NCBI RefSeq assembly: GCF_026239735.1
Contig: NZ_JAPIVT010000006.1
Location: forward strand, 186,001 to 250,000
Length of the DNA: 64,000 bases
Reading direction: 5' to 3'
From: Pedobacter sp. MC2016-05
GTDB lineage: Bacteria > Bacteroidota > Bacteroidia > Sphingobacteriales > Sphingobacteriaceae
Under the pieces are notes generated by a model. The model was not told the DNA's origin. It made no database searches and worked only from the letters and a program-made list of their open reading frames with translations. Positions within the stretch are counted from its first letter, which is position 1. Every line of letters starts with the position of its first letter. A program made the position numbers and the translations under genes. Positions 552 through 7,505 of the stretch are shown one piece after another.

Positions 552-3500
552 TTGAAAGAGAAATCGAACATTCCGGATAACAACACCACTACCTGCTGCT
601 ATTGCGGGGTTGGCTGCGGTATTGTGCTTGGCAAGGATAACCAACAACGGATTACAGTTGAGGGAGATAAAGATCATCCGGTAAATAAAGGAATGTTATG
701 TAGCAAAGGGATGAATTTGCATTACACTGCGAATGATAAGAGCGATAGATTGCTTTATCCCGCTATGCGATACCATAAAAGTATGCCCTTACAACGCGTA
801 AGCTGGGATACTGCTTTGGAGCGGACAGCGATGGTTTTTAAGGCGTTAATTGCTAAACATGGGCCTGATAGTGTTGCGTTTTATGCCAGCGGCCAATGTT
901 TAACGGAAGAATATTATGTTGTTAATAAATTAATTAAAGGTTTTATCGGCAGTAATAACATCGATACCAATAGCCGTTTATGTATGAGCAGTGCAGTTGT
1001 GGGTTACAAGATGAGTTTGGGCGAAGATACCGTACCCATTAGTTATGATGATATTGAAATTGCCGATTGTATTTTCGTGGCTGGTGCAAACCCTGCCTGG
1101 TGCCATCCTATTTTATGGCGCCGGGTAGAGGCCGCAAAAGAAAAAAATCCAAACCTGAAAATTATCGTGAGTGACCCCAGGAAAACGCAAACCTGTGCGC
1201 TTGCCGATGTTCATTTACAGGTAAATCCAGGTACGGATATTACCTTGCATCACGCCTTGGGGAGATGTTTAATAGAAAACGGAAAAATAGATCAAGAATT
1301 TATCTCTTCACATACCAATGGATTTGAAGCCTATCGAACCACTGTCTTCGAGACTTCCCTGGCACAGGCGGCATTAATTTGTGGACTTGAAGAAAGCGAT
1401 ATTCGTTTGGCAGCCTCCTACATCGGCAATGCGAAAGGTTTTATTGCCATGTGGACCATGGGCCTTAACCAAAGTGTGGTGGGTACAAACAAAAACTTAT
1501 CGCTCATTAATCTCAACCTGATTACCGGCCACATCGGTAAACCTGGAAGTGGTCCTTTTTCCCTAACCGGGCAACCCAATGCCATGGGCGGTAGAGAAGT
1601 TGGCGGCTTGAGTAACCTTTTGCCTGCTCATCGAAATCTGGCTAATAAAAACCATCGCAATGAAGTAGAAAAATTCTGGCAAATCCCTTTAGGAAGTATC
1701 CAGGCAAAACCTGGGTTAACTGCAACAGAAATGTTTGATGAACTGAATACCGGAAAGCTGAAAGCAATATGGATTTTGTGCACGAACCCATTAATTAGCC
1801 TTCCAGATGTACGTAAAGCGGAAGAAGGACTTAAAAGAGCGAAATTCGTAGTCGTACAAGACATCAGCAACAAAATAGAAACCTTGGAATATGCAGATGT
1901 AGTTTTGCCCGCCGCAGCATGGGCCGAAAAAGAAGGCACAATGACCAATGCTGGTCGATACATCTCTCACTTGAGCAAAGTTTTAGAAGCTCCTGGTGAA
2001 GCACTGCCTGACGCAGAAATCATCTGTCGCTTTGCAGAAAAAATGGGTTTCAAAGGCTTCTCTTTTAAAGATTCTGCTGCAATTTACAATGAACATGCTG
2101 CACTTACAGCGGGCACTAACATCGATATCAGCGGGTTAAATTATGCTATCCTAAAAGCGAAAAGAGCTGTTCAGTGGCCATACCCAAAAGACGGCAAAAC
2201 CTTTGGAACTGCCAGGTTATTTACAGATCATCAGTTCTACACAGCCGATAAAAAGGCCAATATTGTTTCTTTTAATGATGAGAATCAATCGGAAGCGCTT
2301 ACGCCCGAACATCCTCTTATTTTAACCACAGGCAGAATAAGAGACCAATGGCATACCCGAAGCAAAACTGGAAAAGTAAACAAACTCAACCAACATATCA
2401 GCGAATCGTTTTTAGAAATTCATCCCGCAGATGCGGAAAAAAGAAAGATCAAAAACAATGATGTAGTAGAAATGAACAGTTTGAGGGGAAATGTAAGATT
2501 GAAAGCAAAACTCTCTGACGATATTAAAGAAGGCGTGGTTTTTATGCCTATGCACTGGGGCAAAATTTTAAAAAACGATTTAAACCGGGCAAATAATGTT
2601 ACCCATAATCTTATAGACCCATTAAGTAAGGAACCCGATTTCAAATATACTGCCGTCGAGGTAAGACGTTATCAAAAACAGCAGCAAAAAATTATTGTAG
2701 TAGGTGCGGGTGCAGGCGCTTGCGGTTTCGTAAAAAGCTACCGGGCACTAAATGCTGAAGACGATATTGCAATTTTTAGCAGGGAAAATTTGCCATTCTA
2801 CAATCGGGTTTTGTTGCCCGATTACATTACTGGCACATTGCCCTGGCACAACCTGGTTAAAATGACCGATAATGAAGAAATTGATCTTCGCATTAAACTA
2901 CACCGCGGAGTAGGCATAGAAAAAATTAATAAAGCTGAAAAAACTGTTGTAGATAGCAATGGCCAAATTCATTATTACGATGTGTTGCTTTTAGCTACCG
3001 GAAGCAGGGCCTTTATGTTGAAAGACCTTCCGCAGTTAAACGGAATTTTTACCATGAGAAGCCGCAATGATGCAGACCGTTTTACGCAACATGCCCATGT
3101 AGCAAGAGGAAAAGTGGTGATTGTTGGTGGAGGTTTGCTGGGTATTGAAATGGCCGCTTCACTGGCAGAGAAAGGCTCGCAGGTGGCTATTATTCAAAGA
3201 ATTTCAAGGTTAATGGGGCGCCAGTTAGATGCCACAGGCAGTGAGCTGCTTCATGAAGAACTGATCAGCAAGGGTATTGAAATCTTTTATAACGATGAAA
3301 TTGAAAGGGTAATCGGAGAAAGGAATGTTTCAGGGGTGCGTTTAAAAGGCGGATTGATGATCGATTGCGAATCGTTGATTATTGCCATAGGAACCGTTCC
3401 CAATGTTGAATTGGTTAAGAATGCGGGTATTGATTGCAAAAGAGGCGTTGTTGTAGACGAGTACTTGAGAACGAGTGAAGAGAACATTTACGCCGTTGGT

Positions 3501-4097
3501 GAGATAGCCGAATTTGATGGCCAAATGTATGGCATCACCGCAGCGGCAGAGCAGCAGGCCGAAATCGTAGCAAGATACCTTTGCGGTGATATTGCTAAAT
3601 TTTATCAGGGCAGTTTGTTAATGAATATTTTAAAGATGCATAGCCTGGAATTATGCTCTTTGGGCCTGGCCGAAATACCTGGCAATGACCCAACTTTTGA
3701 GGAAATTATTTTTATTGATAAGGCAAAACGTTACTATAAAAAGTGTATTGTACAGAATGATAAATTGGTTGGCGCAATCTTAATTGGAGATAAAAGCGAA
3801 TTTTTGGAGTTTAAAAATCTTATCGAAAATAAGATGGAGCTGAGCGAAAAAAGACTTCAGCTTTTAAGAAGTGGAAAAACAGCAGAATCCATTATTGGCA
3901 AAACAGTTTGCAGCTGTAATAATGTTGGTGAAGGCAATTTGATTAACAAGATAAAAGATGGATGCAAAGATCACCTGCAATTGTGCCAACTTACCGGTGC
4001 TGGTATGGGCTGTGGCAGTTGCAGGCCAGAAGTAAAGGCTATTTTAGATTCTTTTGTAAACATACCGAAAACCATACCTGAGGTTATTTTAGCATAA
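552..4097 (+). CDS. Assimilatory nitrate reductase fused to FAD reductase and BFD-type [2Fe-2S] domain
   Basis: A 1181-residue fusion predicted to reduce nitrate to nitrite in the cytoplasm. Residues 1 to about 690 are a molybdopterin oxidoreductase: an N-terminal 4Fe-4S motif (C15, C18, C22, C50), a probable Mo-ligand cysteine at 144 (SRLCMSS) and a C-terminal molydopterin-binding part. From about 712 follows a pyridine-nucleotide-disulfide oxidoreductase module with FAD (VVGAGAGACGF) and NAD(P) (VIVGGGLLGIE) sites, as in NirB/NasB. The end (from C1120, VCSCNN to GCGSC) is a BFD-like [2Fe-2S] domain. Electrons can thus pass from NAD(P)H to molybdenum within one chain. The TTG start is chosen because it lies just before the first cysteine cluster and has GAGG about 8 bases upstream. 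In most bacteria these modules are separate subunits. Confidence 0.9.
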   Translation: MKEKSNIPDNNTTTCCYCGVGCGIVLGKDNQQRITVEGDKDHPVNKGMLCSKGMNLHYTANDKSDRLLYPAMRYHKSMPLQRVSWDTALERTAMVFKALIAKHGPDSVAFYASGQCLTEEYYVVNKLIKGFIGSNNIDTNSRLCMSSAVVGYKMSLGEDTVPISYDDIEIADCIFVAGANPAWCHPILWRRVEAAKEKNPNLKIIVSDPRKTQTCALADVHLQVNPGTDITLHHALGRCLIENGKIDQEFISSHTNGFEAYRTTVFETSLAQAALICGLEESDIRLAASYIGNAKGFIAMWTMGLNQSVVGTNKNLSLINLNLITGHIGKPGSGPFSLTGQPNAMGGREVGGLSNLLPAHRNLANKNHRNEVEKFWQIPLGSIQAKPGLTATEMFDELNTGKLKAIWILCTNPLISLPDVRKAEEGLKRAKFVVVQDISNKIETLEYADVVLPAAAWAEKEGTMTNAGRYISHLSKVLEAPGEALPDAEIICRFAEKMGFKGFSFKDSAAIYNEHAALTAGTNIDISGLNYAILKAKRAVQWPYPKDGKTFGTARLFTDHQFYTADKKANIVSFNDENQSEALTPEHPLILTTGRIRDQWHTRSKTGKVNKLNQHISESFLEIHPADAEKRKIKNNDVVEMNSLRGNVRLKAKLSDDIKEGVVFMPMHWGKILKNDLNRANNVTHNLIDPLSKEPDFKYTAVEVRRYQKQQQKIIVVGAGAGACGFVKSYRALNAEDDIAIFSRENLPFYNRVLLPDYITGTLPWHNLVKMTDNEEIDLRIKLHRGVGIEKINKAEKTVVDSNGQIHYYDVLLLATGSRAFMLKDLPQLNGIFTMRSRNDADRFTQHAHVARGKVVIVGGGLLGIEMAASLAEKGSQVAIIQRISRLMGRQLDATGSELLHEELISKGIEIFYNDEIERVIGERNVSGVRLKGGLMIDCESLIIAIGTVPNVELVKNAGIDCKRGVVVDEYLRTSEENIYAVGEIAEFDGQMYGITAAAEQQAEIVARYLCGDIAKFYQGSLLMNILKMHSLELCSLGLAEIPGNDPTFEEIIFIDKAKRYYKKCIVQNDKLVGAILIGDKSEFLEFKNLIENKMELSEKRLQLLRSGKTAESIIGKTVCSCNNVGEGNLINKIKDGCKDHLQLCQLTGAGMGCGSCRPEVKAILDSFVNIPKTIPEVILA

Positions 4098-4103
4098 ATT
4101 TTA

Positions 4104-4613
4104 ATGATGATTAATGTAATAACAAGGCCCTCAGAATTTAAACACCTACAGGGCATCGAATATTTCGATTTTGAAGAAGATTTTATGGAAGAAAATATTC
4201 GTTGCATCCCGATGGTGGTTCGCTTTAAAATGGATTTGGCAGGCATTAAACTCAAACTCGGCGAATGGAGAAGATTCCATCCAGCTGAGCGGGTGGAACT
4301 GGCCTTGCTGCCAACTTCATCCTCTGAAGAAATTAAATATTATCGAAAAAATCTAATCCGGTTAATTACGAAGCATACCGGAAAAGAAGCTACCTCCATG
4401 CCAGTAGATAATCAGCCAGCCTGGCAAAACTTAACTGAAATTCCGAAAATACTCGAAGAAAAATTAAGTGAAGATAAGCTTGAAATTTCCATATCTCAAT
4501 GGCACGTTTTAACAGACATCCAACGGTTTGCACTTTTAAAACTCTGTAGACCGGGGCACGAGAATAAGAATTTCTCGAAGGCCATGGTAGAATTCGGACT
4601 TATAAACCAGTAG
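4104..4613 (+). CDS. Nitrate reductase associated protein
   Basis: A 169-residue soluble protein without signal peptide or membrane segment. It resembles the nitrate-reductase-associated family (Nitr_red_assoc), known mainly from cyanobacterial and other nitrate-assimilation operons; its biochemical role is unknown. Visible family-like features are the opening EYFDFEEDFM segment, a central LGEWRRFHPAERVELA block and a conserved-looking WHVLTDIQRFALLKL helix near the end. It starts 6 bases after the nitrate reductase stop and ends 2 bases before the next gene, so it belongs to the same transcript. A chaperone or maturation role is only inferred from neighbourhood. Confidence 0.75.
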   Translation: MMINVITRPSEFKHLQGIEYFDFEEDFMEENIRCIPMVVRFKMDLAGIKLKLGEWRRFHPAERVELALLPTSSSEEIKYYRKNLIRLITKHTGKEATSMPVDNQPAWQNLTEIPKILEEKLSEDKLEISISQWHVLTDIQRFALLKLCRPGHENKNFSKAMVEFGLINQ

Positions 4614-4615
4614 AG

Positions 4616-6097
4616 ATGGATCAAACAGTTATCATCAACTTTCCGGGCGGAATAATTTCTCCGGGCAACCTGTATAATATTCTGGTTGCTGCAACGAAAG
4701 TCAAGATCTCATTTGTACGTTTTGGCCTTCGGCAACAGCTGTTGGTTGATGCAGCGACGTATAATTTGGCAACATTTACCGGCGAACTGGATATGATTGG
4801 TATTGAGTACGAGGTTGGCAAAAACCAATTTCCGAACATTATTAGCTCCTATCCTGCTGAAGAAATATTCATTAGAAATACCTGGGTAACCGGTGGTGTT
4901 TATAAAGATATTTTAGATGATATTGATTTTAAGCCCCGTGTTAAAGTGAATATTTGCGATGGCAATCAGAGCTTTACCCCTATGCTTACGGGTAACATTA
5001 ACTGGGTAGCCTCTGTACAGGCAGAACATTATTGGCATTTGATTATCCGTTTCCCTAAAACCAACGTAATTTATGAATGGAAAAAACTGGGTTATACCAC
5101 ACAAATTGCTAAGCTTACCAAAGCAATAGAAAAAATTATCATGGCCCATCCATCACTCTTTATCGACAATGAAATGGCCAAAGGAGAAGATCTTTTTGAT
5201 TTGCTGGACGAGGATAACTTCGTTTTAAAAATAGCCGAACAGCCTGTGATTTTATCCAATTTTAACCTACCCTATTATGAAGGCTTAAATCGTTACAATA
5301 ACAAATACTGGTTGGGGATTTACCGTAGAGATGAGTTATTCAGCATTGCTTTTTTGAAAAAATTATGCAAACTATGCCTGGATACCAAACTTGGACAGTT
5401 GTGCTGTACCTCCTGGAAAACGATTATGATAAAGGGAATTGAAGAAAGTGATAAATTAAATTGGAACAATTTACTGGAGGAATTTGAGCTGAATATGCGG
5501 CATGCGGCTAATGAACTTAATTTCCAGGTAGAAGATAACTGCATTGAAGGCCTTGAGCTGAAAAACTATTTGGTAAGGCATTTAAGCATAAACGATACCC
5601 GCACATTTGGAATTTGTTTTGGCATAAAAACCCGCAAAAAAAGTGAAATTTTTAGCAGCATATTAATCCGGAAACGTTATTTATTAAACCTTCTTTTTTT
5701 TAGATTATTCCCGGTATATGATATCCTTTGCGCACAAGGTTTCAACCCCAACGAGCGTACCGGAGAAATATTTAGTCGCAGTAATCCGAAAGCAATATTG
5801 CCCGAGCAAATTAGGCGAGCCATTTATAAGTTTTATAAACACAGGCAAATTTCCCTGAATACTCCTGAAAAAATGATCCAGCCAAAGGCTGAAGAAAGCA
5901 AACAAGCAGCCGCTAGCTTCTTTTACCAGTGTAACAGTTGCTTAACCATTTATGATGAGGAAATTGGCGAAATCCAAAATAACATTCCGCCCGGAAGAAA
6001 ATTTATAAACCTACCCGAAGATTATTGTTGTGTACTTTGTGATGGAGAAAAAAGCAATTTTTCAAAAATTAATCAGGCTGCGTTACAAACATTATAA
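4616..6097 (+). CDS. NirA-fold-like protein with C-terminal rubredoxin domain
   Basis: A 493-residue protein. The last 55 residues are a rubredoxin-type iron domain with cysteine pairs C439/C442 and C472/C475 and the spaced IYDEEIGE, PPGRKFINLPEDYCC pattern. The first about 400 residues seem to contain two parallel halves of a nitrite/sulfite-reductase-like fold: VRFGLRQQLLV near residue 35 and LCCTSWKTIMIKGI near 265 sit where ferredoxin-like half domains of NirA have VRLTxRQN and LTPWQN. The cysteine spacing that binds siroheme and the 4Fe-4S cluster is not seen, so it is unlikely to be a nitrite reductase itself. Its place in the nitrate operon suggests an electron carrier or partner protein. 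The rubredoxin is certain; the NirA relation is inferred by eye. Confidence 0.7.
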   Translation: MDQTVIINFPGGIISPGNLYNILVAATKVKISFVRFGLRQQLLVDAATYNLATFTGELDMIGIEYEVGKNQFPNIISSYPAEEIFIRNTWVTGGVYKDILDDIDFKPRVKVNICDGNQSFTPMLTGNINWVASVQAEHYWHLIIRFPKTNVIYEWKKLGYTTQIAKLTKAIEKIIMAHPSLFIDNEMAKGEDLFDLLDEDNFVLKIAEQPVILSNFNLPYYEGLNRYNNKYWLGIYRRDELFSIAFLKKLCKLCLDTKLGQLCCTSWKTIMIKGIEESDKLNWNNLLEEFELNMRHAANELNFQVEDNCIEGLELKNYLVRHLSINDTRTFGICFGIKTRKKSEIFSSILIRKRYLLNLLFFRLFPVYDILCAQGFNPNERTGEIFSRSNPKAILPEQIRRAIYKFYKHRQISLNTPEKMIQPKAEESKQAAASFFYQCNSCLTIYDEEIGEIQNNIPPGRKFINLPEDYCCVLCDGEKSNFSKINQAALQTL

Positions 6098-6685: not shown

Positions 6686-7369
6686 TTATCTATTACTTAA
6701 ATCCAGTAGTTTAGCTTCATCTAAAATACCAATCATTTTATCTTGAACATGAATAAGTTTTTCGGCAAGCAATTCATTCATCGTTCTAAAAACGGTTTCA
6801 TAAGTAGCACCGGTAAATGCCGCCAAATCTTGGCGACTTATTGTTAAATTTAAAAAACCATTGTCATTTAATCCAAACTGATCGCGAAGGCTTAAGATAG
6901 CTACGGCTAATCTCCCCTTTACCGACATGAGTGCTAAATCTCTCATCTTCTTTTCTGACGCTTGAAGTTCATCAGCATAAAACATGAGTAACGCATAGGC
7001 AAAATCATGATTAACCCTTATCGTGCTTTTAAAAAAATCAATATCAACAAAACAAAGCGAGGTGGTTTCTAAAGCGGTAGCAGATATGGGGTATGCCGAA
7101 TGATTCGAACTAATGCCACGATGGCCAATAATGGCCCCGCTGTTAGCAAAGCGCAGAATAAGCTCTTTATCTCCCCATTGTTTATGCACCTTCACATTGC
7201 CAGATGTTACAAAGTAAACACCAGTAACTGCATCACCCTCTTTTATGATTTCCTCGCCTTTCTTGGCAATAAAATTTCGCTTGTGGCTATTTATTGCTGC
7301 ATGCCACTCGGGTAAAGTGTGCTTACACATAAAGCAAGTTTGAAGATCGCAGCTGCTATTTTTTTTCAT
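6686..7369 (-). CDS. Crp/Fnr family transcriptional regulator
   Basis: About 227 residues from the chosen start. A cyclic-nucleotide-binding-like beta roll (GEEIIKEGDAVTGVYFV through SLCFVDIDFF) is followed by a dimerisation helix and a winged helix (LTISRQDLAAFTGATYETVFRTMNEL). An N-terminal cysteine group, CDLQTCFMC, is common in Bacteroidota members; whether it binds a cluster is unknown. The open frame extends to 7468, but the extra 33 residues do not fit the family, so the ATG at 7369 is preferred. It lies 9 bases upstream of mobA on the same strand and probably controls the facing nitrate cluster; that target is inferred. Confidence 0.85.
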   Translation of the reverse strand: MKKNSSCDLQTCFMCKHTLPEWHAAINSHKRNFIAKKGEEIIKEGDAVTGVYFVTSGNVKVHKQWGDKELILRFANSGAIIGHRGISSNHSAYPISATALETTSLCFVDIDFFKSTIRVNHDFAYALLMFYADELQASEKKMRDLALMSVKGRLAVAILSLRDQFGLNDNGFLNLTISRQDLAAFTGATYETVFRTMNELLAEKLIHVQDKMIGILDEAKLLDLSNR

Positions 7370-7505
7370 GATATAATGACTGTTGTAAAAATAGTAAATC
7401 ATTATACTTTGAAAAGAACTAAATAACTGGTTTCCGTGTAAAAACAAAAGCGCTACAAATGTTTCCATAAGCAGCGCCTTGTCATTGATGAGAAACGTAA
7501 AAAAA

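Follow-up and report, generated by a model that had tools for sequence, protein, structure and literature searches.

The window, a stretch of 64,000 nucleotides from Pedobacter sp. MC2016-05 (contig NZ_JAPIVT010000006.1, positions 186,001 to 250,000 of the forward strand), begins within a nitrate operon. The focal gene lies in this operon; its ORF starts with ATG and encodes a protein of 493 aa. The operon genes in the window and the parts of the focal protein are listed below.

1–521, + strand: C-terminal part of a NarK-like nitrate/nitrite transporter, which starts before the window (a homologue is annotated as NarK family)
552–4097, + strand: NasC, a nitrate reductase of 1181 aa that includes the FAD/Rubredoxin_C/BFD half of NirB as a fusion (Pfam, NCBIfam)
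4104–4613, + strand: NarM, nitrate reductase maturation protein (PF09655, 6.5e-51; TIGR02664 above cut-off)
4616–6097, + strand: focal gene, predicted pseudo-NirA core and rubredoxin (ORF, Pfam, AlphaFold models)
4616–4825, + strand: ferredoxin-like half domain 1, residues 1–70 (weak PF03460 match at 4–43; NirA structural match over 1–299)
4826–5230, + strand: NIR_SIR-like domain 1, residues 71–205 (hhalign to NirA; conservation)
5231–5491, + strand: ferredoxin-like half domain 2, residues 206–292 (PF03460 at 245–289)
5492–5851, + strand: NIR_SIR-like domain 2, residues 293–412, without [4Fe-4S] cysteines (cysteine scan, hhalign to NirA)
5498–5521, + strand: R-H-x3-E-L-N motif, residues 295–302, at about the position of the first cysteine pair of NirA
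5852–5914, + strand: variable linker, residues 413–433 (column entropy 3.14 bits)
5915–6073, + strand: rubredoxin domain, residues 434–486 (PF00301, 3.4e-13; fold Z 9.1–9.6)

Upstream of the window, the operon contains a full NirB (NCBIfam NirB model, 1035.9 bits against a cut-off of 578.35), a NirD-like Rieske protein, an ORF of 131 aa that matches no family, and the NarK-like transporter, after which the fused nitrate reductase, NarM, and the focal gene follow. NirB is preceded by a divergently oriented tetrapyrrole methylase (SUMT) gene, and on the opposite flank a MobA-like gene points towards the operon. Because the intergenic gaps measure only 6 nt between nitrate reductase and NarM and 2 nt between NarM and the focal gene, these three genes are very likely co-transcribed. 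Near the operon end, positions 6686–7468 of the opposite strand encode a Crp/Fnr-family regulator (cNMP_binding, HTH_Crp_2), possibly one that responds to nitrate or NO.

The fused NasC carries FAD, [2Fe-2S], and [4Fe-4S] domains (Pfam). Its C-terminal module matches the N-terminal half of NirB (1.6e-92) and the NADH:flavorubredoxin reductase NorW (1.3e-47), in both cases below the cut-offs, and, judged by its sequence, this NADH/FAD module is a relative of NADH:rubredoxin reductases and of the NirB N-terminal half.

The original prediction described the focal protein as a C-terminal rubredoxin joined to two nitrite/sulfite reductase half domains. The rubredoxin was confirmed down to the exact cysteine positions, which form two C-x2-C pairs (C439/C442 and C472/C475). 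Pfam places the domain at residues 437–482 (PF00301, E 3.4e-13, 49.8 bits, cut-off 23), structural alignment of the AlphaFold model to solved rubredoxins gave Z-scores of 9.1–9.6, and all four cysteines are kept in 59 of 64 homologues. The half domains hold as well, and the motifs named for them do lie there. Residues 245–289 match PF03460 (NIR_SIR_ferr) with an E-value of 2.5e-4 and 21.1 bits, which misses the 24-bit cut-off by 2–3 bits, and a profile search of the organism's own genome gave a weak match at residues 4–43 (E 0.675). Relatives of the protein exceed the cut-off (51, 39.4, 39, 35, 27.1, and 43.7 bits), the divergent ones with two matching stretches, and PF03460 was matched at E ≤ 0.01 (best 5.3e-18) by every one of 24 diverse cores selected for the test. 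For one relative, the sulfite reductase hemoprotein model gave a match as well (1.7e-7), far under its cut-off. The profile searches proposed earlier, against NIR_SIR_ferr and NIR_SIR, were thus borne out for the first family, with the focal protein under and its relatives over the threshold, but not for the second, PF01077, which was not found.

The core, residues 1–412, is predicted to adopt the NirA/sulfite reductase fold with the rubredoxin attached. AlphaFold gave two models, a whole-protein one (35 sequences, mean pLDDT 79.1, pTM 0.58) and a core-only one (30 sequences, pLDDT 80.8, pTM 0.70). The best Foldseek match of the whole-protein model is Mycobacterium tuberculosis NirA (2.1e-16), and the core-only model matches NirA at 2.8e-16. 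In VIA-align comparisons with NirA (1zj8), the whole-protein model aligns over 286 residues (Z 23.5, rmsd 2.9, model residues 1–299) and the core-only model, for which rows under Z 8 were disregarded, over 284 (Z 23.7, rmsd 3.0, residues 1–297); a fold unrelated to NirA, which would have spoken against the original prediction, was therefore not what the models gave. Extended to the full length, the superposition is poor, with a Foldseek rmsd of 16.3 and a TM by query of 0.47 for the whole-protein model and of 12.9 and 0.56 for the core-only model, because the models place the last domain differently. This domain, residues 300–406, resembles the IspG C-terminal domain at a borderline level (Z 8.5, 83 residues), and that IspG domain is related to the nitrite/sulfite reductase fold. 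In a profile–profile alignment (hhalign) against six true reductases, five of them NirA and the sixth a sulfite reductase, the core family aligned over 393 columns in order with a score of 46.6 (E 5.2e-5), while 100 column-shuffled controls reached a maximum of 25.9 and a mean of 16.8. The NirA-like fold is therefore supported by structure prediction for residues 1–299 and by profile alignment for the rest. When the core alignment was used to search the sequences of solved structures, NirA was not among the matches (best E 0.12, unrelated proteins), so that only fold and profile–profile comparisons reach NirA. Both models are of low certainty at residues 80–86, 120–123, and 296–301, and the core-only model also at 216–220 and 325–328.

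The cysteine ligands of siroheme and the [4Fe-4S] cluster, which the original prediction had reported missing, are absent throughout the family. Within residues 290–412, neither a C-x5-C nor a C-x3-C spacing occurs in any of 64 homologues (62 distinct cores), and a complete four-cysteine siroheme-cluster motif occurs in none of their cores. Pfam scans, which were positive for the PF01077 4Fe-4S domain in 11 of 14 control genomes, found no match in the focal protein. With the cysteine spacings absent in 64/64, the focal protein is therefore not a siroheme reductase; its overall fold and its place in a nitrate operon might still suggest a siroheme nitrite reductase with unusual ligands, but NirB scores above its cut-off upstream, and each of the 22 sampled genomes that carry the rubredoxin-bearing form has at least two PF01077 matches elsewhere, which leaves this reading extremely improbable. 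As the operon's own nitrite reductase, the protein was ruled out by the missing spacings together with the normal NirB upstream.

The anion-binding positions of the pocket are kept unevenly. We mapped four Arg/Lys positions, whose labels we take over from NirA-type reductases, by hand onto 66 cores, with a possible one-residue shift in the register of the last two. The first is Lys or Arg in 36/66, Arg never occurs at the second (P, N, Q, E, or A instead), the third is variable, and the fourth, the K110 equivalent, is Lys in 64/66. This one persisting position is what could be expected if the inactive reductase pocket sensed redox state or nitrate/nitrite and gated the nitrate reductase. The other positions, however, vary or are never basic, and such a sensor appears very improbable.

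Conservation differs widely along the core. The top ranks fall in the region 217–235, with PYYEGLNR (219–226), in the second half domain, as the best conserved eight residues; further conserved windows are 124–133, 74–81, and 36–43. In the first NIR_SIR-like domain, N74, N112, D115, and Q118 are invariant in 66/66 cores. The loop N-x-R-H-x3-E-L-N (293–302), which in the alignment with NirA sits approximately where the first cysteine pair is found, ranks third of 403 ten-residue windows, with a mean entropy of 0.51 bits against 1.49 for the core. Loop 80–86 is about average (the eight-residue window from 80 ranks 220 of 405), and this ranking of all windows ruled out the idea that conservation of the core peaks in the loops at the old siroheme site. 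That the conserved loops border the old site is our assumption, made from the alignment with NirA rather than from a solved structure. Their being conserved and yet poorly predicted suggests a missing ligand or partner, a point against a scaffold that is simply degenerate. We weighed a metal site at Cys251-x2-Cys254 and did not retain it. C251 is kept in 63/64 and C254 in 61/64 homologues, but the pair, aligned by hand, falls without gaps on small residues of a NirA helix and is replaced by Ala/Ser in 4/64, so that a structural role appears as likely as a metal site.

The rank of loop 293–302 and the NorW-like module in NasC would both suit an enzyme that detoxifies a by-product. Here, a non-siroheme metal in the rebuilt pocket, with H296 and E300 as possible ligands, would reduce NO, hydroxylamine, or stray nitrite, using NADH electrons passed through the NorW-like module of NasC and the rubredoxin, as in NorVW. 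Precedents are the Bradyrhizobium operon, in which NasC produces NO and an NO-detoxifying haemoglobin is encoded (PMC4724949), and a hybrid cluster protein with a fused rubredoxin (PMC10502027). No metal ligand set is apparent in the sequence, however; H296 is replaced by Tyr in L024, the most divergent member, loop 80–86 near the old site is of unexceptional conservation, and AlphaFold is unsure at these loops. We consider an enzyme of this kind unlikely. Its narrower form, in which the siroheme-reductase fold would have been remodelled to hold a new, cysteine-free cofactor or metal site (RH-x3-ELN) and would act on an N-oxide with power from NADH via the NasC flavin module and the tethered rubredoxin, is more doubtful again; if true, it would represent a new class of N-oxide-handling redox protein.

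We surveyed a sample of 296 genomes spread evenly over the phylum Bacteroidota. At a threshold of 1e-5, 71 genomes gave matches, of which 48 had only short rubredoxin matches (E 1e-10 to 1e-5) and were excluded from the counts. The full-length core is present in 23/296 genomes, and 22 of these 23 retain the four rubredoxin cysteines; in G190, the four cysteines are present and Pfam finds no rubredoxin even at E 10. The rubredoxin-bearing gene lies downstream of a fused NasC on the same strand in 22/22 genomes, with no ORF of at least 80 aa between the two in 19, NarM in 2, and another ORF in 1. Beyond the sample, contigs of named genomes were searched by exact-peptide patterns and plasmids by tblastn. 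The former yielded 41 loci of the core, 37 of them with rubredoxin, and NasC is upstream in all 37, cut by the contig end in one; L055 and L003 (G091) are identical in sequence and were counted in both sets. Plasmid records gave four matches, and the three examined, all from Bacteroidota (Spirosoma, L124; Hymenobacter, L125; Persicobacter, L126), show NarK, fused NasC, and the focal homologue in the same order, with 27.6–45.7% identity. Nitrate assimilation genes including the focal homologue are thus carried on plasmid records of these three genera. On the Hymenobacter volaticus plasmid, NirB is read in two overlapping frames (2003–3256 and 3148–4515), reflecting a frameshift or a sequencing error.

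The neighbouring NarM is familiar from cyanobacteria, and Synechococcus was the sole control genome with a NarM match. In Bacteroidota its distribution is patchy, with matches in 2/296 sampled genomes but in 30 of the 37 rubredoxin-bearing loci of named genomes. As the rubredoxin-bearing form occurs in 22 sampled genomes, NarM was ruled out as its true partner. This rarity means that the focal protein could stand in for NarM, as a maturation factor or chaperone whose core binds a cofactor or apo-enzyme and helps to load nitrate reductase (Mo cofactor, Fe-S) or NirB (siroheme). The NarM, tetrapyrrole methylase, and MobA-like genes of the region would fit such a role, but a chaperone would hardly be expected to need a rubredoxin, and NarM is also there in most of the rubredoxin-bearing loci of named genomes. 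We rank maturation slightly below the detoxifying enzyme, as an improbable reading.

A full fused NasC was found in 27/296 genomes, five of which (G219, G050, G008, G155, and G179; loci L104–L108) lack a focal homologue at 1e-5. The NasC clusters of these five contain a true NirA in 5/5, a flavodoxin in 3/5, and a FAD/NAD reductase in 4/5 (Pfam); the flavodoxin and reductase of G179 were identified by eye, and a flavodoxin-sized ORF in G008 has no Pfam match. NirA, mostly with a flavodoxin and a FAD/NAD reductase, is an alternative redox set in NasC genomes without the focal gene.

Five copies of the core lack the rubredoxin, four of them from Ferruginibacter and one from G126. The corresponding loci are L061, L062 (10001–11269), L065 (5622–6911), L068 (4480–5769), and L083 (63–1556); the ORFs around the last four were read by eye, and L083 begins at a contig end. 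On a tree of 66 cores, the lack of rubredoxin corresponds to two separate changes, most simply two losses. None of the operon genes was found in the four Ferruginibacter loci. Two of these genomes (G296 and G297) have a second, rubredoxin-bearing copy 0.8–1.1 kb after NasC, and in G298 the second copy is partial, at a contig edge; in G299, neither a second copy nor a fused NasC was found. In G126, whose copy is situated at the end of a contig, the search of the assembly gave no NasC, so that here the core is independent of nitrate reductase. The expectation that the gene always follows the fused nitrate reductase accordingly holds for the rubredoxin-bearing form, every copy of which with a readable upstream side follows NasC, but fails for the rubredoxin-less copies outside nitrate operons; the rubredoxin is absent only in copies without a NasC found beside them. 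These five copies keep 64–66 of 68 strongly conserved core columns, including the replacement loop, and residue G260 is altered in 5/5. The core thus appears able to function apart from the rubredoxin. Together with the high conservation of the loop, this disagrees with the degenerate scaffold of the original prediction: to judge from conservation, selection seems to maintain a function in the core itself.

Tentatively, and at somewhat less than an even chance, we favour the view that the protein serves the fused NasC as an accessory redox subunit and that its pocket has been rebuilt without cysteines. The core would descend from siroheme reductases, having lost the cysteines and gained new conserved residues in the pocket region. 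It would dock on NasC and may bind a small ligand in the rebuilt pocket, while a loose linker would tether the rubredoxin, which would exchange electrons with the NADH/FAD module of NasC. Rubredoxin potentials are high for a siroheme-cluster reductase. Typical values of −50 to +50 mV, as given in PMC10502027, are suitable for a nitrate reductase. It is these potentials, together with the NorW/NirB-like module of NasC, that lead us to place the accessory subunit above the N-oxide-detoxifying enzyme and the maturation factor. The accessory subunit is also favoured by the predicted fold, by the constant position of the rubredoxin-bearing form behind fused NasC, by the lack of a NasC found beside the rubredoxin-less copies, and by the alternative redox set of the five NasC genomes without the gene. 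Several points count against it: the fused NasC looks self-sufficient, 5 of 27 fused NasC lack a focal homologue, no NasC was found for the rubredoxin-less G126 core, and the G190 rubredoxin is unrecognised by Pfam.

No publication on the focal protein was found in searches of open-access journal literature, and the RefSeq name of two of the plasmid homologues is simply “rubredoxin”. The parts are known; to our knowledge, their combination and the cysteine-less NirA pocket are undescribed. Siroheme reductases are thought of as one cofactor with one job, and in this family an old enzyme shape seems to have taken on a new role in the use of nitrate. A branch that dropped the cysteines, acquired a new loop, added a rubredoxin, and became tied to nitrate reductase would show reuse of the siroheme-reductase fold, and would give the nitrate assimilation system of Bacteroidota a further subunit, for example in Pedobacter, Ferruginibacter, Spirosoma, and Hymenobacter.

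Among known systems, NirA and CysI resemble the focal core in the order of two ferredoxin-like halves and two NIR_SIR-like domains; the focal protein differs in lacking the cysteine spacings and PF01077 and in having the RH-x3-ELN loop and a C-terminal rubredoxin. The operon's own NirB has the cysteine motifs and one match each to PF03460 and PF01077, whereas the focal protein lacks PF01077 and contains a pair of PF03460-type halves; the N-terminal half of NirB is shared with the neighbouring NasC. CobG, precorrin-3B synthase, is a relative of the NirA fold with another job. The relative that matches the sulfite reductase hemoprotein model also matches CobG, at 8.3e-6 over residues 209–298 (25 bits against a cut-off of 234.8), and the focal protein itself has no NCBIfam match to CobG. 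In the NorV/NorW system, a C-terminal rubredoxin likewise occurs near a NorW-like NADH module, which for the focal protein is located in the adjacent NasC, but NorV contains metallo-beta-lactamase (diiron) and flavodoxin domains, neither of which Pfam finds in the whole focal protein. Finally, class III hybrid cluster proteins, as described in PMC10502027, also carry a rubredoxin on a redox core, in only some members; their core is a hybrid cluster protein, whereas that of the focal protein is predicted to be a NirA fold.
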